From the NCBI GenBank assembly GCA_949358305.1, contig OX442314.1, positions 47,562,581 through 47,626,580 on the forward strand: a stretch of 64,000 nucleotides of DNA. The letters are read 5' to 3'. The position numbers and the translations under genes were made by a program. The stretch comes from Strigamia acuminata (taxonomy: Eukaryota > Arthropoda > Chilopoda > Geophilomorpha > Linotaeniidae). Shown piece by piece: positions 11,443 to 63,928 of the stretch (its first letter is position 1; each line of letters starts with the position of its first letter). Below the pieces are notes generated by a model. It made no database searches. It saw only the letters and a program-made list of their open reading frames with translations, and was not told the DNA's origin.

Positions 11443-11447
11443 GTATA

Positions 11448-20964: not shown

Positions 20965-20968
20965 ACTG

Positions 20969-25215: not shown

Positions 25216-25242
25216 GTGTGGGTGCTTTCACTTTTTTTGATT

Positions 25243-28425: not shown

Positions 28426-28429
28426 TAAA

Positions 28430-28591
28430 ATTATCGGGGATCGTTTTTTCGACAGGCAAAAAAATAAGCTTGTTTTTTTTGTAACGTCTGTTTAGCCTCT
28501 TCATTACATACACTGTGAAGAGAATGTAACTGATATAAATTTCCATTTGAACTTTGACTATTTTCATTTAATCGTAAAAGCATTAACTCAT

Positions 28592-28626
<35 letters not shown>

Positions 28627-29601: not shown

Positions 29602-29714
29602 AGCTTGTTCCGCCGTTCCGCCGTTTCCGCAGGATTGGCGATTCCGGGTTTTCTCCAAACCCATCGGTTCCGCCGGTTCCGCCAGTTCCGCGGTTCCGCA
29701 AATTATCCTGTCCC
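29602..29714 (-). repeat. MULE right terminal inverted repeat
   Basis: Reverse complement of the left terminus, ending AAATTATCCTGTCCC at 29714, followed by the second GTGGTCGTC copy (29715-29723). Confidence 0.95.
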
Positions 29715-29734
29715 GTGGTCGTCACCGTCACACG

Positions 29735-29752: not shown

Positions 29753-30599
29753 AGGTTGCAAAGTTTAAATTTACCGAATTTAATAGAAAGTGAAAATTGA
29801 GATAAATAAAGATTATAACATTTTGAAACGAATTATATATTTCTACTTTTGCGAAGTAGGAAAATGTCTTTAAAAACGTTGGAATTCGTAAGAAATCTAA
29901 CATTAAAGGGAATGTTATGTTGTGTTATAAAACACTCCAATAATTGAAAGAATTTATTTTCTAAATTTTCACGGAAGGTCTGTAAAACAGTTTCAATGTT
30001 GGTTGAATATTTTCGAAAGAATTATCCAATCAATAACGAGATTGACCAGACCAAAGTGCGGACGTGGTAGAAAACTACTGTAAGTAAAGGATTAGTCTCC
30101 ATTTTATCATTGGATAAAATGACTCTCCACCAATAAAATATCGAGGGATTAAAGGATTATCGATCCTCGATGCCACGCGGATCCAGACGGCAGAGGACCA
30201 TTCGTATCCAGACCAGACCCGCGTACACGTGTTCCAGTAGCCATCTTGACCACGCCGTCCCGTTTAGTCCCGATTCGAAATTTCCACGCCGTAGACCAGC
30301 AAAGTTAAGTGTATTCCATTTACTATTCTAATAATAGTTTAAAGCGTATTTCTTTCCAAACGCTAGTTTACCTGTAGAAGATTTCGTTTGATTTTATTCT
30401 AGTTTGGTAATAGTTTAACGCGTATTAAACCACGCGAAGTTTAATTTCCTTTTGTTTAAAGTTTGTCGATAGTTTAACACGTTTAACCACCACGTGGAGT
30501 TTAAGCTTAACCTTATCGAAGTGTATTGTTATTTTGAAGTGTATTTTTTATAAAGTGTGTTATTGTTCTTTAGTAATAAAGAATTTAAAACTTTTATTA
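29753..30599 (+). other. E1 leader
   Basis: 847 bases between primer site and gag ATG. The only notable signal is a consensus splice donor, ACT/GTAAGT, at 30080. It could pair with the acceptor just before the third ORF (TTTGTAG at 37643-37649) to make a spliced subgenomic RNA. No ORF of note. Confidence 0.5.
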
Positions 30600-32089: not shown

Positions 32090-32706
32090 TCGATAGAGGT
32101 CTCTATGAAGAATCATTCAATGACATATTTCAATTTGTCAGACAGAATAGGGCTCTTTTTGAAGCCCAAAATGCTAGTGTGGACACTATTGCCAATAAAG
32201 AGGACGAAACTGTCCCGTCAAACACTCAAAAAGGTAAAGATGCCAGGAGTTCGCGCCCACTCATACGATCTACTCAGACGTTGAACGCCGAACCAGAAGT
32301 TGTACCTATGGAATCTGACGAGACAGACAATATTGAAAATGATGTTGGATTCAACAACATGGTATGTGCCCTATCGGAGAAAGCAACTGGAAAATGTTTC
32401 CATTGCAATCAACCAGGACACTTTAAGAGGGAATGTCCTTTGTTACAAAAAAGAAAATTTGTTCAGGACAAGCCCCAAGGTACTGGTAATAATACCAATA
32501 CCAATCCCGCCTCTGATCTTTTTAAACGACAGAGACAAAATTGGGTGACCGCTGAATCTTTGGACCAAAAACTTGAAGATTTCAAAACTACTATGCAAAC
32601 TAGTATGACAAAATCCATGTCGGATTTATTCACTAAATTTTTGGATCCAAAGAATGCAACCACTCCGCCTTTGGCGATTGAAGGTCCACCGGCTCCAAAA
32701 AACTAG
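32044..32706 (+). CDS. E1 gag, nucleocapsid part (shifted frame)
   Basis: It continues the Gag protein after the break described for 30600-32089. It carries one zinc knuckle, CFHCNQPGHFKREC (about 32396-32437), which binds the RNA genome. The frame ends PAPKN-stop at 32704-32706, directly after the slippery heptamer A AAA AAC. This is where pol is entered by -1 frameshifting. Confidence 0.8.
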   Translation, partial: SSHSSREFELSYNRIIDRGLYEESFNDIFQFVRQNRALFEAQNASVDTIANKEDETVPSNTQKGKDARSSRPLIRSTQTLNAEPEVVPMESDETDNIENDVGFNNMVCALSEKATGKCFHCNQPGHFKRECPLLQKRKFVQDKPQGTGNNTNTNPASDLFKRQRQNWVTAESLDQKLEDFKTTMQTSMTKSMSDLFTKFLDPKNATTPPLAIEGPPAPKN

Positions 32707-32731: not shown

Positions 32732-35700
32732 AAAAGACCAGAGTAGTACATTGTCCTCTGAAATAGAAAATGTTCTAAACGAAACTCTGAATAAACTAGT
32801 AATACAAGATGAGGAAATTAAACGACCTAATCGTAAAACTAGGAAAAGGAATCCAAAGTATGTATTTAAGGAACCTTATCCCAACACTCCTTTTTCGATG
32901 GAAGAGACCGAAAATCCATTTACATCATTCGATGACGACCTCTTTCCTGCGGATAAGGGGGACGAATCTTGGCGAGAGTCCCTGAATGCAATAATTGAAA
33001 GCGCTATAAATCCTCCTGTTCGAGAAGAAACCACGAGTTCTAGTGGAGGAGTATGCGAAAGTTTGGAGGCAATGATGGAAAATTTAGATATCTCCTCGAA
33101 ATTATCTAGACATCATAGACTCCGCAAATATGTCAAAGAACATCAGCTCAAGAGAGCTGAAGTAGTTGAACACATCAAACGTTTGGGAAATAGTGTCGAC
33201 GACCCCCGAATGAAAGTAACAATAGGTGGACTCACCTATAATGCTTTAATGGATTCAGGAGCCACCCAATGTTTTATTGGATTACAATTGCTTGATAGTA
33301 CTTGTGCTTCCCCTGACTTCATTCAAGATTGTCCACGAAATATGAAAGTGTGTGCCGTCGGTATAACTCATATCCCTCTAGGACAAATAACCCTTTGTGT
33401 TCAATGGGCAGATGGAGTAGAATTCACTCCAATGAATTTCATCATTTTAGACCGAAATGTGTGTGGCCTAATTTTAGGACACAATTTTATGCGTCGTACA
33501 ACAATTAATTTAAATCCAGCACGAGCTGTATTTGACTGTGACAACAAACCTGGCTGGACTGCGCCTTACGTGGATAACGACTTTAATGACAGTCTAGCGA
33601 GGTTACGCACAATAAAAGACGACGGAACAGTCACTCATACACCCGACAATTGGGAAGAATTGTTGGTGAAGGATTGCGATTGCTCCGACGAGGAAAAGAC
33701 CAAATTACTAGAAGTAATTTCCGGAATCAAGCACGTCTTTCGGGACAAAGTTGGTTGTACGAACCTTGCTAAGCATAAAATTACGTTTAAGAAGGACGCG
33801 AAATGGAAAAAACAACCGTTTCGCATGTACAATCCAGCTAAAATTGCTATCATGACCAAACTAGTTGAAGAGCTAGAAGCAGAGAATCTCATTGAGAAAT
33901 CCACGGGACCTTACATAAGTCATCCCGTAATAGTTGCCAAACCAAATGGCACATATAGGTTATGTATTGATTACAGATGGCTAAATGCGATCACCGAAAT
34001 CAATGCAATCCAAATGCCCAGTATTGATTTGCTCATGCACAATACTAATCAGGCAAAATACTTCACCTCACTTGACCTTACAAAAGGATATTATCAAGTA
34101 GAGATGGAAGACGAAGATAAGCAGAAAACTGCTTTCTATACTCCAAAAGGCAACTATCAATTTGTACGTATGCCATTTGGGTTATGTAACGCGCCGTGTA
34201 CATTTCAAGCTCTAATGGAACAAGTTATGGGTGACGCGTTATATAAACACGCATTAGTCTATTTAGACGATGTAATTATCTTTTCTCAGACCTGGGACCA
34301 ACATCTAGGTCACATTAAAGATGTCTTAGAACGACTAGACAAAGCAAACTTGTCCGTAAATAAAGAAAAGTCTAAGTTCGGCAGAACTACGCTAAAATTT
34401 CTGGGACACTTAATCACGCCAAATGGATTGGCCCCGGATCCTGACAAAATCGCGTCAGTACGAAAATTTCCAACCCCAAGAACATCGAAAGATGTTCAAA
34501 GGTTTCACGGGTTGGCAAATTTCTTTAGGAAGTTTATTCCTAACCACGGTGAAATTGCTACTCCACTGACTAGCATAATGCATGAGAAAGCAACTTTTGT
34601 CTGGGGACAAGAGCAAATAGACGCTTTCGAAAGAATTAAAGACATCTTATGCGACGAAACTCAAGTTTTGTTAATGCCTAACATGCTCGAACCCTTTGTG
34701 ATTCTAACAGACGCTTCACATTCAGGATTAGGAGCGGTGTTATGCCAAGATGTGGACTTTCTTGACAAAAACAAGGACAAATGGATTAAAACTCCAAGAC
34801 CCGTAGCTTACGCTAGTCGCGTACTTCGAGGAGCCGAGCAACGTTACACTACTCCCGAACTAGAGTGTCTAGCAGTAGTATGGGCTGTAGAACGTTTCCG
34901 CCCCTACATAGAATACACGTCTTTCACCCTAGAGTCAGATGCAGAAGCCTTAAAATGGCTAATGGGAACACCAGAACCTTCTGGTCGTTTTGGCCGATGG
35001 GCGATTAAACTGCAATGCGGCGCCTTTAAAATTAAGTATCGTCGTGGTACCCAAAATCAAGTTGCAGACGCATTTTCAAGAGCTCCTTTGAGTATTGAAG
35101 ACATTCCGAAGGATGATTATATCGAACCCACGGAAATAACTCAATTCTGGCCCGAGTGGGACGGAAATAAGGAAGTTACTCGTAGAGAAGAACCAAAACC
35201 CTGTCAGTTCTTAACAAACGTGTCAATAAAGTTTGATTATTCCAAAAAATTAGATAATTCTTTGGAAAAGGGGGAGAAAGGTCATGTAGAACCAGAAACT
35301 TTATTTAGTGCTTTAACCGAAGTACTAAGTATAGTTCCTCCTACCAGAGCAGAAATCATCGAAGCTCAGCTCAAAGATTACGAATGTAGAAAAATAATAA
35401 CTCATCTAAAATTAGATGAAGTTGAGCAAAAGAAAAATAAGAAAACCAAGCGATGGATGAAAGACATCAAAGGCTACCAACTAGATTTCAAAGAAAATCA
35501 TGATAATGAAGATGAGAATAGTAATGATTCTGAAATGTTAATCTTCTTCAAACCAACATTTGAAGAAGAATTAAATGATTCCGGCAACGGATTTAAAGCG
35601 GTGATTCCACCGTCTTTAGTACGACGAGTGTTGTTCGCATGCCACGGACATCCGTTAAGTAGACACGCGGGGATGAGTAAAACGCTCGAACGAGCGAAAC

Positions 35701-37064
35701 TCATCTATTATTGGCCTAAAATGAGCAAAGACACGTGTAATTATGTTCGTAGTTGTGTTCATTGCCAACAATACAAACCTAGTCAACACCGCAAACACAG
35801 AGCGAGTTATACTCCTCACAACATGGCACAGCCATGGGAAGTTCTTTGTTTAGACTTCATGGGTCCCAAACCCGCTGGTCAACACCAACATAAATATATT
35901 TTAGTAGGAATTGATCAATGTACTAAATGGGTAGAATTAGCCCCATTAAGCAAAGCTTCAAGTGAAGCAATTATAACAAAGTTAGGTGATATCGTACATA
36001 GATGGGGATACCCCAGGAAAATTATCAGTGATAATGGAAAACAGTTTGCATCTACCATTTACGAGGGTTTCTGTAAAAGGCACAACATTAAAATGACTCA
36101 TATAAGTCCTTATCATGCTCAGGCCAACCCCACAGAACGGGCTAACAGAGATATCAAAATAATGCTTGCAATTTATTCTGATGTGCACTCTCACTGGCCA
36201 CGATTTCTGAATGAATTTGCATTTGCATCCAGAACGGCAAAATCCGAAGCAACCGGATCGACGCCATTTTTATTAAATACGGGAAGAATAGTAACACTAC
36301 CTTTCGACCCGCGAATTATTCAACATGCGAATAAATTCGATAAAAATAACCCTGAGGAATTCGTGTTTAATTTACTCGGGATTTTACGAAGAGCACACCA
36401 AGAAATGCACCGTAGGATCCAACTAAATTACGAGAAACACGACAGAATTCATCGTAATAAATTTCATATTTGCAAATATGAAGTAGGTGATTTAGTCTGG
36501 AAGAATACACATATTCTTTCCAATCAAGACAAAGGCATTACAAAAGGATTTGCTGAAAAACGAGACGGACCGTGGGAAATCACGGCCGTATTAACAGGAG
36601 GTGCATACGCCTTACGAAAATTATTAGATGATTCAATTGAACCATCAATAAATACGGATGATCTCACCCCGTATATCCCTTCATACCCGATTGAGACGTG
36701 GACTCTGGGTCAGAAAAAAGGAAAGCTGGAAGATCATCCAAATCCTGATTGGATGTCATCAAATTCCGAATTTAACGAATCTAATTCACAAGAATTAGAT
36801 AATCAAGATATGGAAGAAACCCCTCGTGAAAATCTTGAAAAAGATATGGAAGAACTTCCTCAAGAAAGTCTTGAACAAGAAGAAAGAATAATTCCTACCT
36901 CAAATGAAAATGGAAACGAGATTATCGATCCACGAAGTAATAACTCAAATAAACGGAAGCGAACAGCTGACCTTCCGGAGATAATCTCGAGACCGAAAAG
37001 AACTTCGAAGCCAAATCCGAAATATACAACGGATTTTGTGCAGATGATTCAAGAACGTCGTTAA
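32703..37064 (+). CDS. E1 pol polyprotein
   Basis: Entered by the -1 shift at 32697-32703; the frame is open to 37064 (about 1450 residues). In order: linker of about 180 residues, aspartic protease MDSGAT (about 33250), reverse transcriptase with YLDDVIIFS (about 34260), RNase H with LTDAS (about 34710), integrase HHCC zinc domain (CHGHPLSRHAG...CVHC, 35640-35767), DDE core with LDFMGP, ISDNGKQF and NPTERAN (35850-36140), then a chromodomain-less tail rich in acidic residues (36750-36960). All catalytic motifs are intact. Reverse transcriptase and integrase text is clearly related to E2 (shared MPFGLCNAP, NxTERxNRxIKIML), more than to the mag-like E3 and E4. Confidence 0.95.
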   Translation, partial: LVEGATKNPLKDQSSTLSSEIENVLNETLNKLVIQDEEIKRPNRKTRKRNPKYVFKEPYPNTPFSMEETENPFTSFDDDLFPADKGDESWRESLNAIIESAINPPVREETTSSSGGVCESLEAMMENLDISSKLSRHHRLRKYVKEHQLKRAEVVEHIKRLGNSVDDPRMKVTIGGLTYNALMDSGATQCFIGLQLLDSTCASPDFIQDCPRNMKVCAVGITHIPLGQITLCVQWADGVEFTPMNFIILDRNVCGLILGHNFMRRTTINLNPARAVFDCDNKPGWTAPYVDNDFNDSLARLRTIKDDGTVTHTPDNWEELLVKDCDCSDEEKTKLLEVISGIKHVFRDKVGCTNLAKHKITFKKDAKWKKQPFRMYNPAKIAIMTKLVEELEAENLIEKSTGPYISHPVIVAKPNGTYRLCIDYRWLNAITEINAIQMPSIDLLMHNTNQAKYFTSLDLTKGYYQVEMEDEDKQKTAFYTPKGNYQFVRMPFGLCNAPCTFQALMEQVMGDALYKHALVYLDDVIIFSQTWDQHLGHIKDVLERLDKANLSVNKEKSKFGRTTLKFLGHLITPNGLAPDPDKIASVRKFPTPRTSKDVQRFHGLANFFRKFIPNHGEIATPLTSIMHEKATFVWGQEQIDAFERIKDILCDETQVLLMPNMLEPFVILTDASHSGLGAVLCQDVDFLDKNKDKWIKTPRPVAYASRVLRGAEQRYTTPELECLAVVWAVERFRPYIEYTSFTLESDAEALKWLMGTPEPSGRFGRWAIKLQCGAFKIKYRRGTQNQVADAFSRAPLSIEDIPKDDYIEPTEITQFWPEWDGNKEVTRREEPKPCQFLTNVSIKFDYSKKLDNSLEKGEKGHVEPETLFSALTEVLSIVPPTRAEIIEAQLKDYECRKIITHLKLDEVEQKKNKKTKRWMKDIKGYQLDFKENHDNEDENSNDSEMLIFFKPTFEEELNDSGNGFKAVIPPSLVRRVLFACHGHPLSRHAGMSKTLERAKLIYYWPKMSKDTCNYVRSCVHCQQYKPSQHRKHRASYTPHNMAQPWEVLCLDFMGPKPAGQHQHKYILVGIDQCTKWVELAPLSKASSEAIITKLGDIVHRWGYPRKIISDNGKQFASTIYEGFCKRHNIKMTHISPYHAQANPTERANRDIKIMLAIYSDVHSHWPRFLNEFAFASRTAKSEATGSTPFLLNTGRIVTLPFDPRIIQHANKFDKNNPEEFVFNLLGILRRAHQEMHRRIQLNYEKHDRIHRNKFHICKYEVGDLVWKNTHILSNQDKGITKGFAEKRDGPWEITAVLTGGAYALRKLLDDSIEPSINTDDLTPYIPSYPIETWTLGQKKGKLEDHPNPDWMSSNSEFNESNSQELDNQDMEETPRENLEKDMEELPQESLEQEERIIPTSNENGNEIIDPRSNNSNKRKRTADLPEIISRPKRTSKPNPKYTTDFVQMIQERR

Positions 37065-37653
37065 AAGATTCTAAATATAAAAAGAATATTCTAAAAGATA
37101 TTGATTTAATTCAGATATTGAATATTCAAATCGAAATTCGCGAAGTCACCTGATAAATTATGACCCCGGGTGGAGAGTAAAAGATTCGTTCTATACTCAG
37201 TCTTCTAACACACACGTGAGAGAAGAAGACCTTCGTCGAGTTCAACAAAAATCACGGTCAAGCGCGTTGACATTGTTAACTATCAATCAACGAATACAGG
37301 TATTATGATTATGCATATAAAGTTATATATATATCATGAAATTTCTTTGAATATTCGAAGAAATACAAACCAGCGGAATTCGTTTACTAGCGGCGGAGGA
37401 TTTGAAAGCCACGTGCTCTAAACTCCAAGTTGTCGTCGAGGCGAATACACTCATAATTCCACAAGATACGCTTCTAAAGGAAGCAGGACATTTTCGTAAG
37501 TTCGATAAAATTATCAATACACGAAAATATAAAGTTGTAACGAATTATAATTATAAAATTCGTAAATTCAGTTACGCGTTTTCTCAATAGAGGGCGCGCG
37601 CATACAAAAGTATTGCAAATAAAAAATAAAACGTTTTTTATATTTGTAGAATT
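37065..37653 (+). promoter_or_regulatory. E1 pol-ORF3 spacer with splice acceptor
   Basis: 589 noncoding bases. Just before ORF3 is a pyrimidine-rich tract ending TATTTGTAG (AG at 37648-37649), a good 3' splice site four bases before the ATG. With the donor at 30080 it would yield a spliced mRNA for ORF3, the strategy retroviruses use for env. This is inference from two consensus sites. Confidence 0.45.
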
Positions 37654-39264
37654 ATGGTCAAGAAGATACCAATTAAAAAGCGGCGAATTGTGATCCAGTC
37701 GAGTTCTTCGGAGGATGAAAACACGCCAACAGTCAACCCGACCATCGTAACGGTCCCGGGAGCGCCAAACACCCCTATTGTGCTCGACCAAAAAGGATGG
37801 GACATATTAACCTGGGCCCGAAACAACCCAGATGCTCTCCCAAAAGAAATTCGCCCAAAGACGGCGGTACCCAAAACGGCGATGGAGGTTACCCAAGAAA
37901 CCTTCATTATACCAAAAAAGGACAGTTTCTCCAAAAGCCATCCTTTACAGCCGATCCAAAAACCAAGCACGAGTCGAATGGAAGATTCGTCGACCTCTCA
38001 TGAGAGAAGTCTGGACGAGATTGTCAAATTAGAGGCAAATCGAAATCCCGAAGGAAATCGCCATCATGACAACAAACGTAAACAGCGAGAGTACGTTCAT
38101 TACGACTCGCCGCCACCCACGACTTCGCGCGAAGTAGTGTATACCCCTAGATATAATACGGCTAAAGGGAAACGTACGTTTGTGTCCACCAGAGCCCCCA
38201 AACTGCAGCCGATGACTGCTCAACAAAGAGCAGCTAGTAAACAAGAGAAGGCACTACGTCGAAAAGCCGCCTGCGATCGCGACCTGGAATTGGGAATTCC
38301 ACACGACAATTTGGAGCTCGCGAAGGGCGAAATACCGTGCCCTTTCTGTTTCGGGGTCGGCTGGATGTCCGGCTCCGGGACCGGATGCCATTTGGCATCG
38401 TGCGGTAATTGTCTCGGAACGAAACGACGATTAAAAATCCAACCCTGGAACCCCAAGTTTGTTTCATTTGTGGTTAAAGGGTTGTTCGATCCACAACCCC
38501 GAAAATGGGCAACCTGTCACCTTTGTAAAGCTTTATTATCGAATGATGGCAAAGCTGTATATGAGGATCCCGAATTTATGAATTCGCGAAGAACGCCCCT
38601 TGGCCTTCAAATGGGTGTGGAAAAAATGCCAAGTGTTGTCCGCGTAGATAATGCGACCCAAACGGAAGAAGCCGCATTAGTTCCCATGCCAAATATCGTG
38701 GAACACGGGATTTCGAACGAATTCTTAATCGAACCCTACCAAGTTCCCCCGAACACCAAGATAGGACAGTTATTCGTTTGGGAGGTCGAATACTACTACC
38801 CCATCGTAGCTCGACTTGCGATAATAATTTCTCGCCAATTGATTACGGGTCTTCCCGATCAAATAACGGTAGGATACGTGACCAGGATCATGCAAATGAT
38901 CTTGAATCCACGTCGCGTCGAGGGCTTCAACATTTTGGAGCACCTTTGGAATCTGCTCGTGGGAAAAATCGCAGATGAGCTGAAAAACCAAATATGTGAA
39001 GGCTGGATTTTGGTTTTGCCCCCGGTGATTGACATCTACGAAGATCTCAAAAAGATGATCAATGAAGAAGACGGATCGACTGATCAGCCTGAAGCAGGGG
39101 ATAAAGCACCCGAGACTCCCATCGCCACGGAAGTTGTTGCGACCACTGCATTTTTCATAGATCGGCAACCGGAAGAACCTCTTCCCGCCAAGAAACGTGG
39201 CAAAGGTTCCTCTTCGAAGGATAGGCAAAAGCCCGCCACGGAGACCGAAAAAGGTCAAGATTAA
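37654..39264 (+). CDS. E1 ORF3: basic protein with CPxC...CxNCLG zinc module, function unknown
   Basis: 536 residues in the envelope position of a retroelement, but it is not an envelope: no signal peptide, no clear membrane anchor, no furin site. N-terminus: basic (KKIPIKKRR), Ser-rich and low complexity to about residue 190; a basic helix-like stretch (QQRAASKQEKALRRKAACDRD) follows. The zinc module is Cys 229, Cys 232 (CPFCFGVGW), Cys 245, Cys 250 and Cys 253 (CGNCLG), with a further CHLC pair at 288-291. C-terminal half: mixed helices (about 340-465), then a Lys-rich tail. The Cys pattern recalls DnaJ-type CxxCxG fingers. E2 has a protein with the same module (62753-63928). Function unknown; nucleic-acid or protein binding is plausible. 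Confidence 0.75.
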   Translation: MVKKIPIKKRRIVIQSSSSEDENTPTVNPTIVTVPGAPNTPIVLDQKGWDILTWARNNPDALPKEIRPKTAVPKTAMEVTQETFIIPKKDSFSKSHPLQPIQKPSTSRMEDSSTSHERSLDEIVKLEANRNPEGNRHHDNKRKQREYVHYDSPPPTTSREVVYTPRYNTAKGKRTFVSTRAPKLQPMTAQQRAASKQEKALRRKAACDRDLELGIPHDNLELAKGEIPCPFCFGVGWMSGSGTGCHLASCGNCLGTKRRLKIQPWNPKFVSFVVKGLFDPQPRKWATCHLCKALLSNDGKAVYEDPEFMNSRRTPLGLQMGVEKMPSVVRVDNATQTEEAALVPMPNIVEHGISNEFLIEPYQVPPNTKIGQLFVWEVEYYYPIVARLAIIISRQLITGLPDQITVGYVTRIMQMILNPRRVEGFNILEHLWNLLVGKIADELKNQICEGWILVLPPVIDIYEDLKKMINEEDGSTDQPEAGDKAPETPIATEVVATTAFFIDRQPEEPLPAKKRGKGSSSKDRQKPATETEKGQD

Positions 39265-39633
39265 GCCATGTTCGAATTTAAAAACAATTAGCAGTTTGTT
39301 TGTGTGTTCTGTGATAAAAAAAATTATTATAATTTGTAACCGAAAATTACTTTAACCGAGATTTTTGTAAGAAGTGTTTTTCGTTATAAGAAAATAACTT
39401 CATGTTTATTTTTTTAAAATAACCAAATTATTTTTATAACCGTCTCTGTAAAAGAGAAAATAAAAACAATTTTTGAGCATCCTAATGATAAGAACATGTT
39501 TATTAAAAACACTCATGAGCTTTATGAAATTAAATAGTAAAGTATTTAATAATATGGATGAATTTGGCACGAATGATATTCCTAAAGAATAACATAAAAT
39601 ATAAGAGTATATGTTTAGTTATTAAGGGGGATG
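39265..39633 (+). other. E1 3' noncoding region and polypurine tract
   Basis: AT-rich, no ORF. It ends in AAGGGGGATG (39624-39633) directly before the LTR, the plus-strand primer. Confidence 0.8.
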
Positions 39634-41293
39634 TGTGACAAATTAGCAATAGATGGCGCCACTAGTACTGGCGGCAAATTCAACCTCGAACTTACTATTT
39701 TACATAGAAATAGTTCACAAACATATTATTATGTTTGATACGACCAAATGTGATTCACATCGATAATATAAAGATATATTATCAATACTTAATAAGATAA
39801 AATAGGTGTTACTGCTTTATCACCGATACATGACGAGAAACACAGTTTCGAATGTATTTCCGTTCTGTGTATCCATTTCCTGTCCCCGGTATCCAGTTCC
39901 GGTTTATGCTAAGATTAGCATAATCCAAGTTTGCATCTCCGTATCCACTTCCTGCGATACGAGATTGGTGGAACTTAATCCCACCGAGTATAAAACTCCC
40001 TGACAACAGGAAGTTAAGTTAGTTCTTGATTTCTGGTTATTTGGTATGTTCCGCATGTCAAATAACTGTTTCTTACTCAGGGCATGGTCCTACCGGACTA
40101 TGCATAGCATGGCTCTGCTGAGCCATGCAACCCCCGTCAACTGAAGGCGAAGTTCGGACTGTTAATGTTTCCGTCAAACGGTCTTGCCGAGGAGAAAGCC
40201 TCCCGCATAAGTATCCTCGTGGTCGGACAATAGAATCACGTGTGATACCAAAGTATTTAGTAACCGTTAGTAGCACTGTTACTGAAAGAGATTGACTCCA
40301 TCACTTGATGGTGCCAAAGCAGTCTGCATGCAAAACATGTAGTAACCGCCAGTAGCACTATGTGTTTGGGAAAGTTATATCTCTTCGGTGATGGTGCCAA
40401 AGCAGTCTACTTATGAGTAGTATCTCGGGTGATTAATTCTGTTGTGCAGAACTGCGGGCTATATCCCCCTGAATACCAGTGCCGTCTCTCACCGCACTGT
40501 TATTTAGGGCACGCGCGATACTGTTCTGCTCAGCAAGGCGAACTTTGACGGCAATTGTGTGTTGCGATGTTTAAACCTTTTTATATTTTGTAGTTGATAA
40601 TAAACCTTAATTGTTTAAACTTGGCACAACAAGTTAACAACCGAAGTAAGTCACGAGACTTATTTCACTGTATGACGAATCAAATTCGTAACAATAAATT
40701 GAATACAATTTATTGAGTCAATTTATTAAACTCACAACATCGCGAATTAACTATAATTCGCAAGTGGAACCTTGGCGAATAAATGACTTCATTTATTCAT
40801 TACCAATTTCCAACTCTAGTTGTGGCGGTGCACATGAGTCAACCGCACCTCTCGGATCGAACCAACAGCATTACATGGACCATTACAACAGATACGAACC
40901 AGGAACGCGAGGGAACGCGAAGGAACCAGTTCCACGATTACGAAGCGCCGACGGAAGCCGCGAGGACACAGCCAGCCCGGCTATCTGATGACATCTATAC
41001 TCGGTCGAGCGGGCGTTTTGCCGTTCCCGAACCCCGGATCACCAATAACCGTAATCATATTATTTTAGGGCTGTTTCACAGCCAATTAGTTGTATAGTTT
41101 AACTTGTATTTAACTTGCCAAATGTCGGCATTAGAATTTGTATAACTTTTAGATTTGATTCTATTGTTTGACAACAATAAATATTATGTTTTGAGAAACT
41201 TGTTGTCTTTATTTTATCTCGTATTATTCACTATTTCACGCGACTTATACCCGGTACTATCATGCGATAGGAGTTGTGGTCGTCACCGTCACA
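39634..41293 (+). repeat. E1 3' LTR, uninterrupted
   Basis: 1660 bp with a TATAAAA box at 39989-39995. It matches 20969-22617 plus 29724-29732 almost base for base; the one clear difference I found is two extra bases (CA) near 40627. It gives the empty site for the MULE insertion. Confidence 0.97.
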
Positions 41294-52113: not shown

Positions 52114-52144
<31 letters not shown>

Positions 52145-54161: not shown

Positions 54162-54936
54162 TGTGACGTAATATTTGTTACTCGTTCCAGAGTTAGCATT
54201 GGATAGCATGCGAATGCTAAGCCTAGTTTTGAAGAGTTGTGATAAAAATGTGTATGTAATAATATAAGGGTATTGGTCTCTTAGTATCCGTATACTGAGT
54301 ATATATACTACAGTGTGACCGGCTGCCCGCTCAGTCCGCTCACTTGCCTGCAACACACGGCGCTTCCACGGCTCTCGCGCACCTCGTGTGTTTCTCGCGC
54401 GCACCTGTTGCGGACCCCCGCACCAGGTGGAGCTGATGGTCGTTGGCCCGGCCAATTGGGAACCGGAAGTGCCCCTTCCGGAAGTGGTGGGCCCCGCAGA
54501 GGCCCAAGAGAGTTCTCTAACTTCCAGCATGGCGAACGGTCGCTTCCACGATCGCTCTTCCACGCTGGCGGCAATGACGAATCCAGTTGGCGTAGCGACT
54601 CTGTCGCCCGCCGGGACTTGATAGTCCACGTTCCCCATGTCCGTCCTGCGTTCTCCGTGAACGTAGCGGCGACATGGCTAAACGGTATTCCGACCACGTG
54701 TGTCATGGCGGCCATTGGCCGCCGTGCCACGCGGTCTTGTTAGGGACGGCTGTTCGCAGCCGTCGCATTGGGAAATGCACTGGGAGACACCACATCATAC
54801 CCCTAGACATCAATAAAGCTTACCTTAAACTAAACTTGTGTCTCTTGTGTATTTCGGAGTGAATTCTATCGTGTGTGTTGTGTCCAGCGCCTCGTGGCTC
54901 TCCCCCGACCACGTGGCGACCGTCCAAACACTCACA
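54162..54936 (+). repeat. Putative E2 5' LTR
   Basis: 775 bp with ends TGTGACGTAAT...CACTCACA (TGTGA/TCACA inverted; E1's LTR also begins TGTGAC). It contains TATATATA at 54300-54307 and AATAAA at 54812-54817, as expected for promoter and poly(A) signal. Open frames inside on both strands are GC-rich by-products. No second copy in the window, so the right border rests on the adjacent primer site. Confidence 0.6.
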
Positions 54937-54940
54937 ATTG

Positions 54941-57173: not shown

Positions 57174-58775
57174 ATGCCAGCGACCAGAACTGGTAAGACC
57201 ACGTGGGACTCTCCTGCACCTAATTCTTCCACACCCGCAACGGATTCAGACTTGAACGACTCGGATAATAATTCGATTGCTTCTTCAAACGACAATATGT
57301 CAGTCCCTAAAGTTAAATTGTTGGATCAAGCGATGCTTGAAACAACTTGCAACGTCTTTAATCTAGTTATTGATGATATGACGACCTACGAAGTGTGGGA
57401 AGACACGCTTCTGAAAGTAGCCGATCACTTGGTGGAACTCCAAGACAAATCGGATAGCACTATGCGTCAATTAACGCAAACGCGCACGGAATTCGGTGAT
57501 ATTAGCGACCGGTTAACTCATGCTTTGCAGGAGTTAGACTCTGCGAAATTATCGAATGAAAGCTTGTTGAAGATGATAGCTAGTCAAAAGGCTATCGTCG
57601 ACAGCGTGGTGGCGGCCGGACAGTCGAATTTGAGGGCACAATCTGCAATCTCAAACACGATTTCTTCCACCGCAACAACACCAGTTGCTGGAGCCGCTCC
57701 AGGCGCAACGCCTACGACTGGTAATCCACTTTTCCTAGCTTGGGGAGACAAGTTTCTCCACAAGACTGACCAGGCTATGCCTGCTCCCAGGCCAATGGAT
57801 GAAGTAGAGCTAAGTAAACGAGTCAAATCCATTGGAATTGAAGCGTTTGCAGGGGACAAGACGAAAGCTAAATCTTTCCTTATTGATTTAAAACGTTCTC
57901 TACGCTTTGCTTTGCCTTATCTAAACCAAGTGCTCGCTGAGCATTTGTTTAAGTTTTTCCGAGGAGATGCGGCCACATGGTTCTCTTCTCATGCCAAAAC
58001 GAATTGGGAGGAATTCGAACATGAATTTATCACCCATTTTCGTCCGAGCGATGCGCTGCTTTTAGCAGAAATTGCTAAAACACAGCAACTGTCTCATGAG
58101 TCCGCCACCCAAGTGGTGATAAGACTCGAGAAGTTATATGCTCAATTGACTATTCCTGTGCACGAGAGCCAGCAAATTCAAAAAGTGCTGGCAATTCTGC
58201 GCCCAGCGGCCAAGAACATGGTCGCAAATGCCATTAATTTGGAGAACACTTGGGCGTCGCTCAGGAAAGCTTGCATTGCTACGGAGGCCGCGATTATAAA
58301 TCAGGAAACTGTGACAAATGCAGCAATCATCGAAGCGGCAAAAACAGAAACTGTTACGCCAATTCAAAAAACCAACCAGCAAATGGTAACAATACCAAAT
58401 GCTGCGGGTGGAGATAAACCGAAGTTTGTTCCGTTTGGATTGAGAAATCCAAACAATAGAACACTGTTCCCTGCGCCTAAAAATGCTGCGATAGCAGCAA
58501 CAAAGGCCGCAGAAGGAAACGAGAAGGCGCTAGTCCCGAGCAATAGGCTCAAAGACTATGCGACAAAACCAAGAGTTGGCGGTTGCTGGGGCTGCGGTGG
58601 CGCACACTTTGAACGGGATTGCCCCCTCAAGGTGGAAGCCGCCAAAGCAGCAATGGAAACAATCGCCGCTGCCCAACACAGCATGATGCAGGCTATGCTT
58701 GCAGCCAACGAGTTTGGTGGCTGGCCTGACATGTCGGGAAACGAGGAGTCGCAGTCGACAGAAACTCCCGAGTAA
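57174..58775 (+). CDS. E2 gag
   Basis: Structural protein of the retroelement particle, 533 residues from ATG 57174 (PATRTGKTTWDS). The in-frame upstream extension to 57081 begins with a non-ATG codon and is not needed. Acidic Ser/Asn-rich N-terminus; coiled-coil-like region (about 57410-57600); Ala/Thr/Gly-rich linker; capsid-like core (IEAFAGDKTKAKSFLIDLKR, DAATWFSSHAKTNWEEFEHEF); single zinc knuckle CWGCGGAHFERDC (about 58586-58622). The slippery site lies 33 bases before the stop, so most ribosomes would finish Gag and a few would continue into pol. Confidence 0.9.
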   Translation: MPATRTGKTTWDSPAPNSSTPATDSDLNDSDNNSIASSNDNMSVPKVKLLDQAMLETTCNVFNLVIDDMTTYEVWEDTLLKVADHLVELQDKSDSTMRQLTQTRTEFGDISDRLTHALQELDSAKLSNESLLKMIASQKAIVDSVVAAGQSNLRAQSAISNTISSTATTPVAGAAPGATPTTGNPLFLAWGDKFLHKTDQAMPAPRPMDEVELSKRVKSIGIEAFAGDKTKAKSFLIDLKRSLRFALPYLNQVLAEHLFKFFRGDAATWFSSHAKTNWEEFEHEFITHFRPSDALLLAEIAKTQQLSHESATQVVIRLEKLYAQLTIPVHESQQIQKVLAILRPAAKNMVANAINLENTWASLRKACIATEAAIINQETVTNAAIIEAAKTETVTPIQKTNQQMVTIPNAAGGDKPKFVPFGLRNPNNRTLFPAPKNAAIAATKAAEGNEKALVPSNRLKDYATKPRVGGCWGCGGAHFERDCPLKVEAAKAAMETIAAAQHSMMQAMLAANEFGGWPDMSGNEESQSTETPE

Positions 58776-58787: not shown

Positions 58788-61700
58788 CTCTTACTATTGT
58801 GTTGATTCCAATGGAAGAAGACATGGAGGATGCTCTATTTGATGACATTTCATCCACAGAACCAGATCCTCGCGTGGTTTTTTCCACAGAACCTGAAATC
58901 GACCATGTAAACGTTGCATTGAAGACAGGAAAGAGTATTACTCCCCTGCCTTACATCAAGGCAACACTAAACGATTTAAAGGTCACCGCTCTGATGGATA
59001 CTGGGGCAACCCACAGGTACATCAGCGGGGGAATGCTTAAAAAGCTAAACCTCTTGCACTTTATGACTCCATTTTTAGAAAATCGAGTTGTATACACTGG
59101 CGATAGGCCAACACGTCCAATCGGGACAATCACGTTGCCACTTAAGTGGCGAGGTGGTGAGCTTCCGGTGACATTTACTGTTCTTCCATCAGCTTCCAAA
59201 TTTATACTATTAGGTTGCTCTTGGATTATCGAAAATAAGATTGTTCTCAATCTAACAGAGCGAGAATATTTCCATATTGATTTTCCACATGACACATTTC
59301 CCTTCGACGACCCACCATCGCCTGAAGAACTTGGAAATGCAATAATGGATCGATGGGATGCTTTGGTTGCAGAATCAAAGTCACCTGTTATCTCTACGGC
59401 TGATTTAAGCCAGAAACTGCTAGCAAAAAGCAAATTGTTGCCAAGACAGAGATTTCAAATCTCAACTCTTGTAGAAAAATACAAACATGTGTTTAGTGAC
59501 AAAGCTGGCTGCCACCCCACGTTGGAACATCCAATTCCGACTGGAGATGCACCTTCATTTCGATGCAAAGATCGACCAATGAATCCCAAGAAAGCTGAGA
59601 TTTATCGCGAATTGGTTGCTGAATTGCTGAGAGATGGTTGGGCTGAACCTTGCGAGGGGAGTTACAAAAACCCCCCCGTGATTGTAGCAAAGAAAGATGG
59701 AGGTTACCGCCTCTGTATTGATTTTCGCTGGCTAAATAAGATCACAATTAAGGACGTCTATCAGATGCCCTCAATTTCTATGATTTTGGCCTGTTTAGGT
59801 GGGAAAAAGTTCTTTTCTACTCTTGATTTAACTAAAGGTTACTACCAAATAAAGCTTAAACCAAGTGATAAGAGGAAGACTGCCTTTTCTACCTCTGATG
59901 GAACATACCAGTTTACTCGTATGCCTTTCGGACTGTGCAATGCACCCAGTGCGTTTCAGAGAATGATGGATCAAGTTCTTGGAACTGCACAACACAAGTG
60001 GGCACTCGCTTACCTCGATGATATTATCATTTTTAGCGACTCATTTGAGGAACACCTTCAACATCTAGATGACATATTGTCAAAACTAGATAAAAACAAA
60101 CTGACAGCTAGTCCGTCAAAGTCATTTCTTTGCCCAGAAGAATTAAATTTTCTTGGTTTCACAATGTCAAATGGGAGCTATAGCCCAAACAACGACAAAG
60201 TGGAGGCAATTTTAAAATATCCAACCCCTTCCAGTATAAAGCAGCTTCAGCGTTTTATTGGAATGGTAGGTTTCTATGCTGCTCTAATTCCAAAATTGAG
60301 TATTACTCAAAAACCATTCTTTGCCCTTCTAAAGAAAGATACAAAATGGGAATGGTCTGAAGAATGCAATGTTGCCTTTGAATATTTGAAAAATCAACTT
60401 GCAAAAGGAATTATGCTGCCTCTGCCTGATTTCGCACGCAACTTTACCATCCATACAGATGCTAGTGGCGGCGGGCTTGGAGCTGTCCTCATGCAAATTG
60501 ATGACCATGGTGCTTTAAGACCAGTTGCATACGCCAGCAGAACTCTGCAAGGCGCGGAAAACAACTACAGCACCACCGATTTGGAATGTTTAGCTGTGGT
60601 TTGGGCTGTTGATAAGTTCAAACCATACATTGAATATTCTGAATACCAAGTTGAGACTGACCATCACGCTCTGAGATTTCTCATGACAATGGAAAATCCA
60701 GCTGGAAGACTGGCTAGGTGGGCAATGAAATTGCAAAATGAAAATTTCACCATCAAGTACCGGAAAGGCACCGACAATCAAGTCGCAGATGCCTTATCCA
60801 GAGTCTCTCTTGATAATGGCAATCCATTAGAAGGAAAAGCAACTCTAGCAGAGATTATAGAACCTGTTGCTCTAGCTTATCTCACAAATGAGATCGATGA
60901 CTCAATGTCATTCGAGAACATTATATTGCAGCAACGTGCAGATAAACATCTTTCAAAACTAATCGAATGGTTAGAATTGGATGATGGACAACCTCGACCA
61001 GAACTTCCTAAGTTCTTGGAAGACAGGCAGTACGACTGCACACTCACTAGAAAAGGAATGCTTATTATTTATGCACCTTTTAAAACTGATTTCTTTGTAG
61101 AGGAAGAAGATTTGGGAATTGGATTTAAAATCTTTATTCCCCCGTCTCTGCAACTCGCAGCCCTCCAACTAATTCATGATCACCCAATGGCTGGTCACGG
61201 AGGAGTTGAAGTAACTTTGGAGCGATTGAAAAGAATTTATTTCTGGCCAAATATGCAAAAAGAAGTTAAACTTCATGTAGCTAGCTGCAATCGCTGCCAA
61301 CGCTGTAAACCGATTCAGAGGAAACCAAAAGGATTAATGGTCCCAACCTCTCCAAAAATTGGTCGTTTTGAGAAGATAGGAATTGACCTAATTGGTCCAC
61401 TGCCTAGAACTCCAAACAGAAATCGCTTCATTCTGGTTGTGGTGGATTATGCCACTGGCTGGATGGAAGCTACGCCGCTAAGATCTGCTAAAATGACTGC
61501 AATTGCACCAATTTTAAAACGATTTTTTAGCTGTCATGGGTGCCCTCGTTTCATGTTGAGCGATAATGGCCCCCAATTCATTTCTGACGTTTATCAGACT
61601 CTCTGTGACGATGCTGGGGTTGTCCCAATAAAAACGACACCTTATCATCCCCAGACTAATCTGACTGAGCGTGTAAACAGAAATATCAAGATCATGCTTC

Positions 61701-62509
61701 GAATCTTTACTTTTGAGCACGATCACTGGGACAGATGCATTGACCAAATAAATTTTGCTTTGCACTCTGCTCCAAATGTGTCTACCGGCTTTACACCAGC
61801 AATGCTAACGTATGGCAGAGAAATTCGACCGTTTTGGGACAATCGAGACGTGTCTTATGACACCCCTTTCGACCCAAATAGGCCCTACGACGCTGTCAGA
61901 ATGCTAGTCGCTAGACACCGTACTCTGATTGCTGCAGCTCTAAAAAATAAGAGTCTAGCCCAAGCAAAACAGAAAACTTATTACGATCGACACCGCAGCG
62001 ACGATAAATTCGAAGTTGGAGATTTGGTTTTACTAAAGACCCACCCATTGTCCAATGCTGCTAATCGATATGCTGCGTCCCTTGAGGATCGCTTTGAAGG
62101 ACCATATGTAATTACTAAAGTCTTTAATAACAATGCGTATGCCGTTGCAACACCAATCACTTTGCAAGCGAGAGGCACATACAATATTGTAAAACTCAGG
62201 AGATTCGTCCCCTCAGAAGAAAAGGCTCAATGGCCCATTTTAGATGAGGAAGATGAAGAAGTTCTTGAGAACCGACCTGTGAACACTGGAACAGCAACAA
62301 TCTTGCCACCACCAGTGCGACCAACAGAATCTGGTATCGCAACCAAGTTGCCAACACCAGTAGAACCTTTGGGAAATCCAAAAAAGAAAAAGGCTTTGCC
62401 TCTGCCACGAGTGGATTCACACAAAACCACGGCAGCACAGTCAAAACCGAATTCGGATTCGAAAAGACCATCGAGAAATCATATTTTGCCGATACGATAC
62501 AGAGATTGA
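58742..62509 (+). CDS. E2 pol polyprotein
   Basis: Entered by -1 frameshifting; about 1256 residues. In order: protease MDTGAT (about 58994), reverse transcriptase with MPFGLCNAP (about 59920) and AYLDDIIIFSD (about 60007), RNase H HTDAS (about 60454), integrase HHCC zinc domain (HDHPMAGHGG...CNRC, 61173-61300), DDE core with GIDLIGP, LSDNGPQF and NLTERVN (61380-61680), then a C-terminal segment with VGDLVLLKTH (about 62015) and a Pro/Lys-rich tail. All signature residues are present with no stop. Closest relative in the window is E1. Confidence 0.95.
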   Translation, partial: RGVAVDRNSRVTDDCALTIVLIPMEEDMEDALFDDISSTEPDPRVVFSTEPEIDHVNVALKTGKSITPLPYIKATLNDLKVTALMDTGATHRYISGGMLKKLNLLHFMTPFLENRVVYTGDRPTRPIGTITLPLKWRGGELPVTFTVLPSASKFILLGCSWIIENKIVLNLTEREYFHIDFPHDTFPFDDPPSPEELGNAIMDRWDALVAESKSPVISTADLSQKLLAKSKLLPRQRFQISTLVEKYKHVFSDKAGCHPTLEHPIPTGDAPSFRCKDRPMNPKKAEIYRELVAELLRDGWAEPCEGSYKNPPVIVAKKDGGYRLCIDFRWLNKITIKDVYQMPSISMILACLGGKKFFSTLDLTKGYYQIKLKPSDKRKTAFSTSDGTYQFTRMPFGLCNAPSAFQRMMDQVLGTAQHKWALAYLDDIIIFSDSFEEHLQHLDDILSKLDKNKLTASPSKSFLCPEELNFLGFTMSNGSYSPNNDKVEAILKYPTPSSIKQLQRFIGMVGFYAALIPKLSITQKPFFALLKKDTKWEWSEECNVAFEYLKNQLAKGIMLPLPDFARNFTIHTDASGGGLGAVLMQIDDHGALRPVAYASRTLQGAENNYSTTDLECLAVVWAVDKFKPYIEYSEYQVETDHHALRFLMTMENPAGRLARWAMKLQNENFTIKYRKGTDNQVADALSRVSLDNGNPLEGKATLAEIIEPVALAYLTNEIDDSMSFENIILQQRADKHLSKLIEWLELDDGQPRPELPKFLEDRQYDCTLTRKGMLIIYAPFKTDFFVEEEDLGIGFKIFIPPSLQLAALQLIHDHPMAGHGGVEVTLERLKRIYFWPNMQKEVKLHVASCNRCQRCKPIQRKPKGLMVPTSPKIGRFEKIGIDLIGPLPRTPNRNRFILVVVDYATGWMEATPLRSAKMTAIAPILKRFFSCHGCPRFMLSDNGPQFISDVYQTLCDDAGVVPIKTTPYHPQTNLTERVNRNIKIMLRIFTFEHDHWDRCIDQINFALHSAPNVSTGFTPAMLTYGREIRPFWDNRDVSYDTPFDPNRPYDAVRMLVARHRTLIAAALKNKSLAQAKQKTYYDRHRSDDKFEVGDLVLLKTHPLSNAANRYAASLEDRFEGPYVITKVFNNNAYAVATPITLQARGTYNIVKLRRFVPSEEKAQWPILDEEDEEVLENRPVNTGTATILPPPVRPTESGIATKLPTPVEPLGNPKKKKALPLPRVDSHKTTAAQSKPNSDSKRPSRNHILPIRYRD

Positions 62510-62752
62510 CCACTAGGTGGACACCTCCGAATTCGAAATTCCTACGGACCAATCACGAGACGACAACATAGCGTTTCCGGTTTCGTACACGTTGCGTAAA
62601 AGACGTTATTCTGCGGTACTTAAGAAGGAATCTTGGCAACATCAAATCATTCTCGTTCCAAGCAAGTGACTGTCCAGTTCGTCTCCTCCGCACGAATCCC
62701 GTCGATTTCCTGTTCCGTATATTTGATTTGATCAATTCATTTTTATTTTCCA
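62510..62752 (+). other. E2 pol-ORF3 spacer
   Basis: 243 noncoding bases. CTGTCCAG at about 62672 and a long pyrimidine-rich run before the ATG could serve a splice acceptor, but unlike E1 no AG sits right before the start codon. Confidence 0.4.
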
Positions 62753-63928
62753 ATGGAAGAATATCCAGCCGGCACTCGAGTCGTATGCCCAGTGTGTTTA
62801 GGAAGTTGCGTAACCGAACGCAACAACGGCGCGTTAACTCCGTGCGAAAACTGTCTTGGCGAAGGACATGTGGATCGCAACGAACCTTTGGAACTCTGGT
62901 TCCGTCATTTTATGACGGTATCCGGACGCCCGATTCCAGTAAGAAACCGCGTGGTCGGTTGGATGCGAGTGCGTTCTCGTAGAGAAAGAAAGAAGTCAGA
63001 AAAGGCGTTTTACGCCAATTCCGGCGCCTCGACTTCGGCCCAATCGCCACGAACGGGATCAAATCCCAATTCCACGTCAAAAGCTGACGATACAACGACT
63101 GGACGAGTTTCAAAAAGAGCGGTTTTACGCTTGAAACTAGCCGAATTTGCGGCGAATCGTTCGCAAACGTCGCAGACACCGAAAACTTCAACTTCGAGTT
63201 CGACTAAAATCCTTCGACCACCGAAGAAAGTGACTGTAAAACAGTCATGTTCGACGGTGACAGAATCGAAAGCCAAACCACGCTCTGAGATTTCGGCGGC
63301 CCTCGTCGCAATGCGACTAAAGATCCGCGAACGAAATCCAAAGATGGCGGAAGAGACAGTAAACGCTTTAGCCAAAGAACGTCTCAAGTGGGAGAAGGTC
63401 GCTGATTATAAACAGCGACAAGCCGCCCTCGCCGTGAGCCAACGAGTGACCGCTACGGTTACGTCATGTACGCAAGCGGCGAAGAAATCAATCCCACCAC
63501 CGTCGTGTACGATCGTCTCAAACGATACGAGCATGCCGACGGAATTCGTTTGTTCCTCGACTGTTTTACAGTCAATTCCAAATCCAGCGGTCATTATGCC
63601 GCCGATATTCGGCGAGAGACCAACGGACATTTCATTTCAGAATCTCCAGACCGCTCCGATGTCAACCGAAAATGGCGCGGCCGCCACCGAGACCGTCGCC
63701 GAAGCATCGAGTGCGATGGAAACCGAAGAATCGCATACGCCTCCGCCGCCTCTTCCACCACAATCGAAGGCAGAGAAGGCGGAGAAAAAAGCGGAAAAGA
63801 AAACCAGATCCGCCGCGAAGCGAGAGCAAAAGACGCGTCGTAACCTGGCGAAGGAGCTGCCGTCGATAAAAGAGAACGAACGTGACGACGAGACGCCACC
63901 GACGCCCGGCAAGACGCTACAGATATAG
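62753..63928 (+). CDS. E2 ORF3: basic protein with CPxC...CxNCLG zinc module, function unknown
   Basis: 391 residues from ATG 62753. The zinc module is at the very N-terminus: Cys 12, Cys 15 (CPVCLG), Cys 19, Cys 31 and Cys 34 (CENCLGEG), followed by a short aromatic stretch (LWFRHFMTVSGRP) that parallels PKFVSFVVKG in E1 ORF3. The rest is basic and Ser/Thr-rich, with helix-forming segments (63290-63450) and a Lys/Glu-rich tail with AEKAEKKAEKK. No signal peptide or membrane anchor, so not an envelope. Same position, similar composition and same Cys module as 37654-39264: the two are very likely homologous. Function unknown; the nearest familiar pattern is the DnaJ-type CxxCxG finger. Confidence 0.75.
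   Translation: MEEYPAGTRVVCPVCLGSCVTERNNGALTPCENCLGEGHVDRNEPLELWFRHFMTVSGRPIPVRNRVVGWMRVRSRRERKKSEKAFYANSGASTSAQSPRTGSNPNSTSKADDTTTGRVSKRAVLRLKLAEFAANRSQTSQTPKTSTSSSTKILRPPKKVTVKQSCSTVTESKAKPRSEISAALVAMRLKIRERNPKMAEETVNALAKERLKWEKVADYKQRQAALAVSQRVTATVTSCTQAAKKSIPPPSCTIVSNDTSMPTEFVCSSTVLQSIPNPAVIMPPIFGERPTDISFQNLQTAPMSTENGAAATETVAEASSAMETEESHTPPPPLPPQSKAEKAEKKAEKKTRSAAKREQKTRRNLAKELPSIKENERDDETPPTPGKTLQI

Follow-up and report, generated by a model that had tools for sequence, protein, structure and literature searches.

The accessory genes that envelope-less retrotransposons carry in the env position are mostly unexplained. In the passages of the published report used here (PMC10309623), CERV is encoded in the env position of Cer1, a gypsy/Ty3 element of C. 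elegans, is expressed from a spliced mRNA and is nuclear; it has a possible C4-type finger, and its cysteines are required for gathering on nuclear genomic RNA and for export. Env-position genes and selected pol-less elements are already in print. The most unusual features of the gene family described here, termed ORF3, are its exchange as a cassette and the existence of elements carrying ORF3 only.

The window, i.e. the whole analysed stretch of 64,000 nucleotides (C1:47562581-47626580), contains two Ty3/gypsy elements, E1 and E2, each with an ORF3; the host genome was searched over 237.5 Mb in 157 contigs.

Two elements and the ORF3 families of the host genome

The features of E1 and E2 are collected in Table 1. 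In both pols, Pfam matches followed the order protease, RT, RNase H and integrase, the protease matches being weak, and both elements are flanked by LTRs, as is expected of Ty3/gypsy (Metaviridae) elements. Since the two LTRs are near-identical in E1 and identical in E2, both insertions would be recent. E2 gag has, by eye, a CCHC-like knuckle close to its end. The two pols align colinearly with 35% identity over 1195 aa, placing E1 and E2 in one Ty3/gypsy lineage; because this pol lineage is shared, ORF3 probably came down together with pol and underwent exchange afterwards.

Table 1. Features of elements E1 and E2 (window coordinates unless stated otherwise)
Feature	Position	Strand	Remark
E1 5' LTR	20967..22617	+	99.88% identical to 39632-41284
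E1 leader, candidate 5' splice site GTAAGTA	30080..30086	+	sequence match
E1 gag region	30557..32706	+	two different frames in window copy: 30557-32089, 32179-32706
E1 pol	32751..37064	+	open-frame list, Pfam, alignment to E2 pol
E1 candidate 3' splice site (TTTTTTATATTTGTAG)	AG 37648..37649	+	4 nt before ORF3 ATG
E1 ORF3	37654..39264	+	536 aa, fully open
E1 3' LTR	39632..41284	+	1653 bp; pair identity 99.88%
E2 5' LTR	54314..54937	+	624 bp; 100% identical to tail of L001
E2 gag	57174..58775	+	ATG at 57174; mechanical ORF begins 57081 with TTG
E2 pol	58799..62509	+	protease, RT, RNase H, integrase; Pfam matches
E2 pol-ORF3 spacer	62510..62752	+	putative internal promoter boxes; alternative: 3' splice site ~90 nt before ATG
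E2 spacer boxes (putative)	GACCAATCAC 62547-62556; TACTTA 62617-62622; TCATTC, A at 62649	+	
E2 ORF3	62753..63928	+	391 aa, fully open
E2 3' LTR	beyond window end, L001 3160-3783		624 bp, 100% identity to 5' LTR

Other features of the window were recorded as well. A DNA transposon at the inner end of the E1 5' LTR (window 22617-29715) has 116-bp inverted ends (93%) and a 1069-aa ORF, which we take to be MULE/Ulp1-like; within it, 62-bp units form a tandem array at 24904-25228. Two more LTR elements lie around gag-pol ORFs at 5710-11444 and, on the minus strand, at 15459-20196; their LTRs are short (207 bp and 135 bp, respectively, each pair 100% identical), and the cysteine module of ORF3 described below is absent from their frames. 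Exons at 50794-52151 presumably belong to a CPSF73-like host gene, as judged by eye.

Searching the genome revealed several ORF3 families, for which the copy counts are lower bounds with intact copies over-represented, only the best candidates having been scored. Among the matches listed for the E2 ORF3 query, family A accounted for 19 full-length copies (98-100%) and family B for 13 (44-45%); C was represented by 65 matches to the N-terminal part (30-35%) and D by a single one (53% over residues 8-101). The full-length A and B copies listed were stop-free throughout (32/32). With the E1 ORF3 query, at least 52 copies were found over the full length, 49 of them stop-free, along with family E1b (37-39%; 13 matches, and more with E1b's own query). 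Families F (L055, L058), G (L056/L066) and E1c (L060) were found downstream of more distant pols. E1c gave at least 90 matches over the 471 aa queried, 87 being stop-free, from a partial query locus with frames extending to ~555 aa. The G query recovered E2 ORF3 (E 1.5e-6, 27% identity) and led to two further groups with frames of ~664 and ~774 aa, as seen in match tables only.

ORF3 was present in other copies of both elements. Among the matches listed, an ORF3 match stood behind 82 of 85 E2-type pol 3' ends, 208-251 bp beyond the pol end (pols at 78-100% identity, full match), and behind 55 of 56 E1-type ends, at a distance of 520-608 bp (pols at 93-100%); for E1b this was the case at 46 of the 59 ends listed, all three counts including partial or stop-bearing ORF3 matches. 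C1:64457689, a full-length E1b row with stops, was left out of the E1b count; its ORF3 match lies 776 bp on. One of the three E2-type misses (C1:41105823, L059) has a C-type ORF3 with a broken frame. At 13 of the 59 E1b ends, the 2.5 kb that follow contained no ORF3 match; one of these is L061, where direct reading of 2.4 kb revealed no ORF3. When sense frames of at least 70 aa in nine downstream stretches were inspected, the module was found in five (L055, L056, L058, L059 with its frame broken, and L060) and was absent from four (L057, L061, L062 and L063).

Three side observations concern the distribution and context of these copies. E2-type pol copies are located mostly on C1 (68/85, on 67 of the 237.5 Mb) and there mostly beyond 28 Mb. 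L046 has an open frame of 1082 aa, in which an in-frame deletion has fused the RNase H region of pol, here E2-like, with a C-type ORF3. L031 (C1:47522400-47527600) holds the single-copy D ORF3, which has its own C-terminus. The 3 kb upstream contain no pol, and a zinc-finger-like ORF and a short remnant resembling gag were seen upstream; this ORF3 may be a relic, or else may have been adopted by the host.

The ORF3 protein and its paired cysteine knuckle

An earlier sequence-only reading of this DNA had proposed that both elements carry, behind pol, a third gene other than an envelope gene. This was borne out by the two ORF3s, which lie on the same strand as pol; the one in E2 is fully open, as had been stated, and so is that in E1. 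The reading had also placed the cysteine module correctly (residues 12-34 in E2, 229-253 in E1), while its description of both proteins as basic applies to E2 (63 K+R, 41 D+E) and fits E1 less well (74 K+R, 66 D+E).

The module reads C12-P-V-C15-L-G17 ... C31-E-N-C34-L-G36 in E2, followed by F50xxF53, and C229-P-F-C232-F-G234 ... C250-G-N-C253-L-G255 in E1, followed by F269xxF272 and, further downstream, by an additional C288xxC291. Its consensus across families is CPxCxG-x13-15-CxNCxG, with the first G replaced by A in E1b. E2 ORF3 is composed of the module (12-36), an aromatic stretch (45-57; a helix in a low-confidence structure model), a low-complexity middle and a C-terminal TPPTPGK motif, and has a conserved stretch at residues ~177-218. 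Positions invariant in A, B, C, D, F and G include C12, C15, G17, N25, C31, N33, C34, G36, F50 and W70 (E2 numbering). PAVxMPPxxGxxPT and a C-terminal TPGK motif are common to A, B, C and F, and ISxxL...R......P...AK to these four and D; the E1-type proteins share CPxC...CxNCxG, then [SP]F[VI]V.G, then another CxxC.

The sequence-only reading had it that the flanks had diverged while the module was kept. Convincing E1-E2 alignment was confined to ~50 columns. Aligning the profiles of the two ORF3 groups (4 E1-type, 8 E2-type) gave a P value of 3.6e-5 and a probability of 71.6 over 50 columns, which correspond to the module plus the aromatic stretch. In a blastp search of E1 against E2 ORF3, the module scored E 0.005 and a low-complexity stretch E 0.011 (single comparison). 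In an HMM search, E1 (E 0.004), E1c (0.02) and E1b (0.05) all ranked above 9000 shuffles (best 0.29). The module regular expression matched two of 762 window frames, namely E1 and E2 themselves, and none of 9000 shuffles of three E1-type proteins, whereby a chance motif was rejected. These data bear on the possibility, which cuts across all other readings, that the third genes of E1 and E2 are unrelated and acquired the knuckle independently, with different reasons for selection. The lack of a convincing alignment outside the ~50 columns, the commonness of CxxCxG...CxxCxG knuckles and the different module positions (229 in E1, 12 in E2) are compatible with it, but the profile P value, to which the aromatic stretch contributes, the same slot behind pols of one lineage and the rank of the E1-type proteins above all shuffles make us regard it as unlikely.

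The sequence-only reading knew of no named family for ORF3, but the module itself has weak kin. PF00684 (DnaJ CXXCXGXG) matched A, B, F and G with 13.5 to 15.9 bits, below the curated cut-off of 32.7 bits, and no match to it was listed for C, D, E1, E1b and E1c; family C showed a weak match to anti-TRAP (PF15777), likewise below cut-off. Because of these matches the module is not without kin, and, going by its residue pattern, it is best called a DnaJ/anti-TRAP-like paired knuckle. The likeness consists in the paired CxxCxG knuckles; the differences are the scores, the partial match to the DnaJ domain and the lack of a J domain, neither this nor a known DNA-binding domain being found in the ORF3s with Pfam. 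E1b gave a weak ZNF512 C2HC match and E1 a weak Lar match; apart from the latter, no zinc family of note was found in Pfam for D, E1 and E1c. The mean pLDDT of the predicted structures was 61 for the E2 module and 39 for the E1 module; Foldseek with the low-confidence E2 module model returned no match, and a PDB sequence search with the E2 module nothing credible. The module probably binds zinc. It is distinct from the Gag nucleocapsid CCHC knuckle, C-x2-C-x4-H-x4-C, since the ligands are wrong: the ORF3 modules are paired CxxC without such a His.

Stretches of transmembrane strength usually exceed a mean hydropathy of ~1.6. The best 19-residue means were 1.03 for E2 ORF3 and 1.28 for E1 ORF3, and, with no hydrophobic anchor in either protein and no Env match in Pfam, an Env or fusogen identity was rejected. 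The broader idea that ORF3 replaces Env, or that it serves transfer between cells as MDG1-group sORF2 does, draws on the env position and on sORF2 lying downstream of pol in some Lepidoptera elements, as mentioned in the part of PMC11952523 used here; it is highly improbable, given the missing transmembrane-strength stretch and the length of the ORF3s, at least 364 aa as compared to 63-107 aa for sORF2-like proteins. The short ORF with a transmembrane domain that defines sORF2/FAST-like genes was not seen in ORF3.

Selection, defective copies and cassette exchange

ORF3 occurs in hundreds of copies and several families within one genome, and selection was assessed from pooled Nei-Gojobori pN/pS within families. 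The values were far below 1 (0.10-0.27), i.e. 0.21 for A (171 pairs, 19 copies), 0.10 for B (10 pairs, 5 of 13 copies), 0.24 for C (171 pairs, 19 of 65), 0.10 for E1 (21 pairs, 7 of 52 copies, pS 0.15) and 0.27 for E1b (6 pairs, 4 copies). For the last 400 codons of pol, pN/pS was 0.12-0.19 within B, within C and between families; A pol had zero synonymous differences and hence no ratio, and between families the synonymous divergence of ORF3 was too high for a useful one. This purifying selection supports the earlier suggestion that conservation of the module implies a selected function. On the low pN/pS, together with the pol-remnant control given below, a neutral leftover ORF was rejected. 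ORF3 is present, conserved and under purifying selection, and we regard it as a true accessory gene carried by a single Ty3/gypsy lineage.

Defective copies retain the gene. Mere pol scraps lie upstream of ORF3 in five C copies and in six of the full-length A copies. Four of the five C-type pol-less copies (L036, L037, L038, L045) have the 3' part of gag open to its end, with 97-99% protein identity to E2 gag, and the fifth, L049, has ~100 gag residues. The A-type pol-less copies have lost gag too, the leader being less than 400 bp from the pol scraps in the four compared (L009, L014, L016, L019), and they retain leader, spacer, ORF3 and LTR. The upstream stretches of two A-type copies (L073, L074) consist of LTR and leader at 98% and contain no open sense frame of at least 150 aa, so that ORF3 is the sole open frame of this size in the stretches read of two gag-/pol-less copies. 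L073, L074, L014 and L016 represent ~7-kb elements with LTRs and a long leader, for which no open frame of at least 150 aa other than ORF3 was seen in the stretches read.

In these copies the pol remnant serves as a built-in neutral control, which makes selection on ORF3 directly visible. The A-type remnant (95 codons) had a pN/pS of 0.68 against autonomous copies and 1.25 among the defective copies themselves, with a shared in-frame stop, as compared to 0.20 and 0.26, respectively, for their ORF3; this control is based on small counts and non-independent pairs, and a few of the differences stem from a short slip in the alignment. The ORF3 of the C-type pol-less copies gave 0.26 and 0.29. Since ORF3 is constrained while the pol remnant drifts, ORF3 in enzyme-less elements is either kept by selection or refreshed from autonomous elements; recombinational refreshing does occur, because two of the six A-type defective copies have an ORF3 identical to that of an autonomous copy.

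The open gag beside ORF3 in four of five C-type copies, together with the weak PF00684 matches of A, B, F and G and the anti-TRAP match of C, could point to a structural or chaperone-like partner of Gag, whose DnaJ-like knuckle would bind nascent or unfolded polypeptide and aid particle assembly. However, every such Pfam match is below cut-off, with the DnaJ domain matched in part, and the A-type defective copies keep ORF3 without gag, which lowers the odds; we regard a Gag partner as distinctly improbable.

Comparison of the families revealed an abrupt change behind pol. A and C are ~92% identical in DNA through pol, where dS is 0.36 and dN 0.035, as opposed to ~31% protein identity in ORF3, with a dN of 0.69 and saturated synonymous sites; the local A-C alignment ends at window 62524-62527, 15-18 bp past the pol stop. 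Between A and B, pol dS is 0.72, ORF3 pS is 0.74 and the ORF3 proteins are 44-48% identical. With its LTR counted in, the 3' end of A shows ~78% identity to that of C and ~85% to that of F over 320 bp, despite only 65-70% protein identity of the F pol. The A-type and C-type defective copies have one common core (86% over ~875 bp), with a pol scrap 79% identical to E2, which is combined with an A-type ORF3 in some copies and a C-type ORF3 in others. Judged from these alignments, the E2-type elements are mosaics jointed near the pol stop, and the collapse of E2-C identity directly behind that stop makes ORF3 an exchangeable cassette. Such mosaics usually arise by template switching between co-packaged RNAs. 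That cassettes exchange suggests a unit of selection smaller than the whole element.

At the pol stop of E2-type elements (window 62510-62520, and the spacers of L026, L048 and L055), a common CCACTAGGKGG-like motif was observed, which resembles a CTCF site.

Expression signals, proposed role and known systems

E1, E1b, E1c and G have a pyrimidine-rich tract and an AG 3-5 nt before the ORF3 start. On a simple score, this AG ranks first of the 34 AGs in the 589-bp spacer of E1, 1/49 in E1b (1/55 in a second copy), 3/52 in E1c and 7/74 in G. G has no ATG before the module and its frame opens at the AG, which calls for a spliced first exon. At the gag start of E2, GTAAGA was found at 57193.

In the E2-type spacers, GACCAATCAC is kept before ORF3 in A, B, C, D and F. 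A TATA-like TA[CT]TTA follows this CCAAT-type box after 67-75 bp in A, B, C and F, and 31-32 bp past the TATA-like box comes TCATTC in A, B and F or TCACTT in C; D has CCAAT and TCATTC with no TATA match. We take the boxes of E2 to be a CCAAT/TATA/Inr promoter layout with a leader of ~100 nt. A, B, C and F have no rank-1 splice acceptor adjacent to the ATG, their best AG being 56-101 nt upstream at no single common place. The similarity of the A spacer to those of C and B may in part be plain common descent.

These boxes would suit an early nuclear regulator, either an LTR transactivator or a counter-silencer, with its own internal promoter, as is the case for foamy virus Tas, a regulator expressed from an internal promoter. 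In line with this, the boxes stand at near-constant spacing, the E2 LTR contains no match to the TATA pattern, and a locus-linked regulator would explain why gag-/pol-less copies retain leader, spacer, ORF3 and LTR. On the other hand, the E1-type and G spacers have splice acceptors and lack the CCAAT/TATA/Inr footprint, the CCAAT-type (NF-Y) motif, taken by itself, shows no enrichment over the window (10 occurrences as against 6.8 expected), and Pfam revealed no known DNA-binding domain; we therefore consider an early regulator rather unlikely.

Our tentative preference, held with somewhat less than even confidence, is a soluble nuclear protein acting on the element's own RNA in analogy to CERV. 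ORF3 would be a soluble, non-membrane protein with a C4 zinc-knuckle-like module, an aromatic stretch and low-complexity flanks, translated from its own short mRNA. In the E1-type elements and G, this mRNA would be formed by splicing to the acceptor next to the ORF start; in the E2-type elements, it would come from the internal CCAAT/TATA/Inr promoter or from a splice site 56-101 nt upstream. In the nucleus, ORF3 could aid the export of unspliced genomic RNA or its channelling to Gag, and it would serve chiefly the copy that encodes it, which would explain why pol-less and gag-/pol-less copies retain it; such cis action is favoured by the ORF3-only copies. The mRNA form, the nuclear location, the export role and the cis action are what we infer from the signals, the CERV analogy and the defective copies. 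Several points speak against this CERV-like role: the cysteine spacing is unlike that of CERV, the internal promoter, if real, suits an early regulator equally well, the E1-E2 similarity rests on ~50 columns, the ORF3 of defective copies may be recombination-refreshed (the two identical ORF3s among six), and 13/59 E1b pol ends are without ORF3 within 2.5 kb.

Taken as a whole, we would cautiously, and not quite as confidently as the CERV-like role itself, read ORF3 as a large, undescribed zinc-knuckle family that occupies the env slot of an animal Ty3/gypsy lineage as an exchangeable cassette favoured in cis, with its own expression signals, on autonomous as well as gag-/pol-less elements, so that gag-pol backbones which are nearly identical bear widely differing ORF3s. 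If this is true, ORF3, and not Env, would determine the way in which these elements gain mastery over the host nucleus, and the ORF3-only elements would be selfish units supplying nothing else.

The ORF3 family was not found in the literature as searched by title and abstract start, and it may sit unnamed in subscription papers or Repbase. E1 ORF3, E2 ORF3 and the six-family alignment had no homologues beyond the host genome in collections apparently poor in animal genomes, a result of little weight, with the best ~8000 candidates scored for E2 ORF3 and the six-family alignment; neither E2 ORF3 nor the two-pol alignment matched viral contigs, again in a collection apparently poor in animal genomes.

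Among known systems, sORF1 and sORF2 of the Drosophila MDG1 group resemble ORF3 in that they are accessory to insect Ty3/gypsy elements and evolve under purifying selection; they differ, according to the part of the report used (PMC11952523), in being ~110 and ~70 aa long, in lying upstream of gag and in their predicted helix-turn-helix and transmembrane character. Athila of Arabidopsis shares recombination between distant families, as well as pol-less copies whose gag or env genes are under purifying selection, but is a plant lineage with an env-like gene, and no zinc module is mentioned in the passages drawn upon (PMC2410132). The additional ORFs of plant LTR retrotransposons, as far as covered by the sections of PMC7264820 considered, are conserved, lie between pol and the 3' LTR and, in some families, are shared by most if not all copies; unlike ORF3, the sense ones include Env-like proteins, and others are antisense. 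With CERV, as described in the passages used, ORF3 has in common a third gene between pol and the 3' LTR, the lack of Env homology, a possible C4-type finger, strong divergence between relatives and a separate spliced mRNA, the latter inferred here for the E1-type only. In contrast, the cysteines of CERV are C193, C195, C200 and C269 (C-x-C-x4-C ... C) where ORF3 has CxxC ... CxxC, and CERV, with which ORF3 was compared by description, is a protein of 517 aa comprising an H, an M and a G domain. ORF3 is not classed as CERV because the cysteine spacing differs. Should ORF3 prove to be a nuclear regulator or to act in RNA export, it would represent a CERV counterpart outside nematode Cer1-type elements, and Rev-like or Tas-like functions would have arisen repeatedly in Ty3/gypsy.
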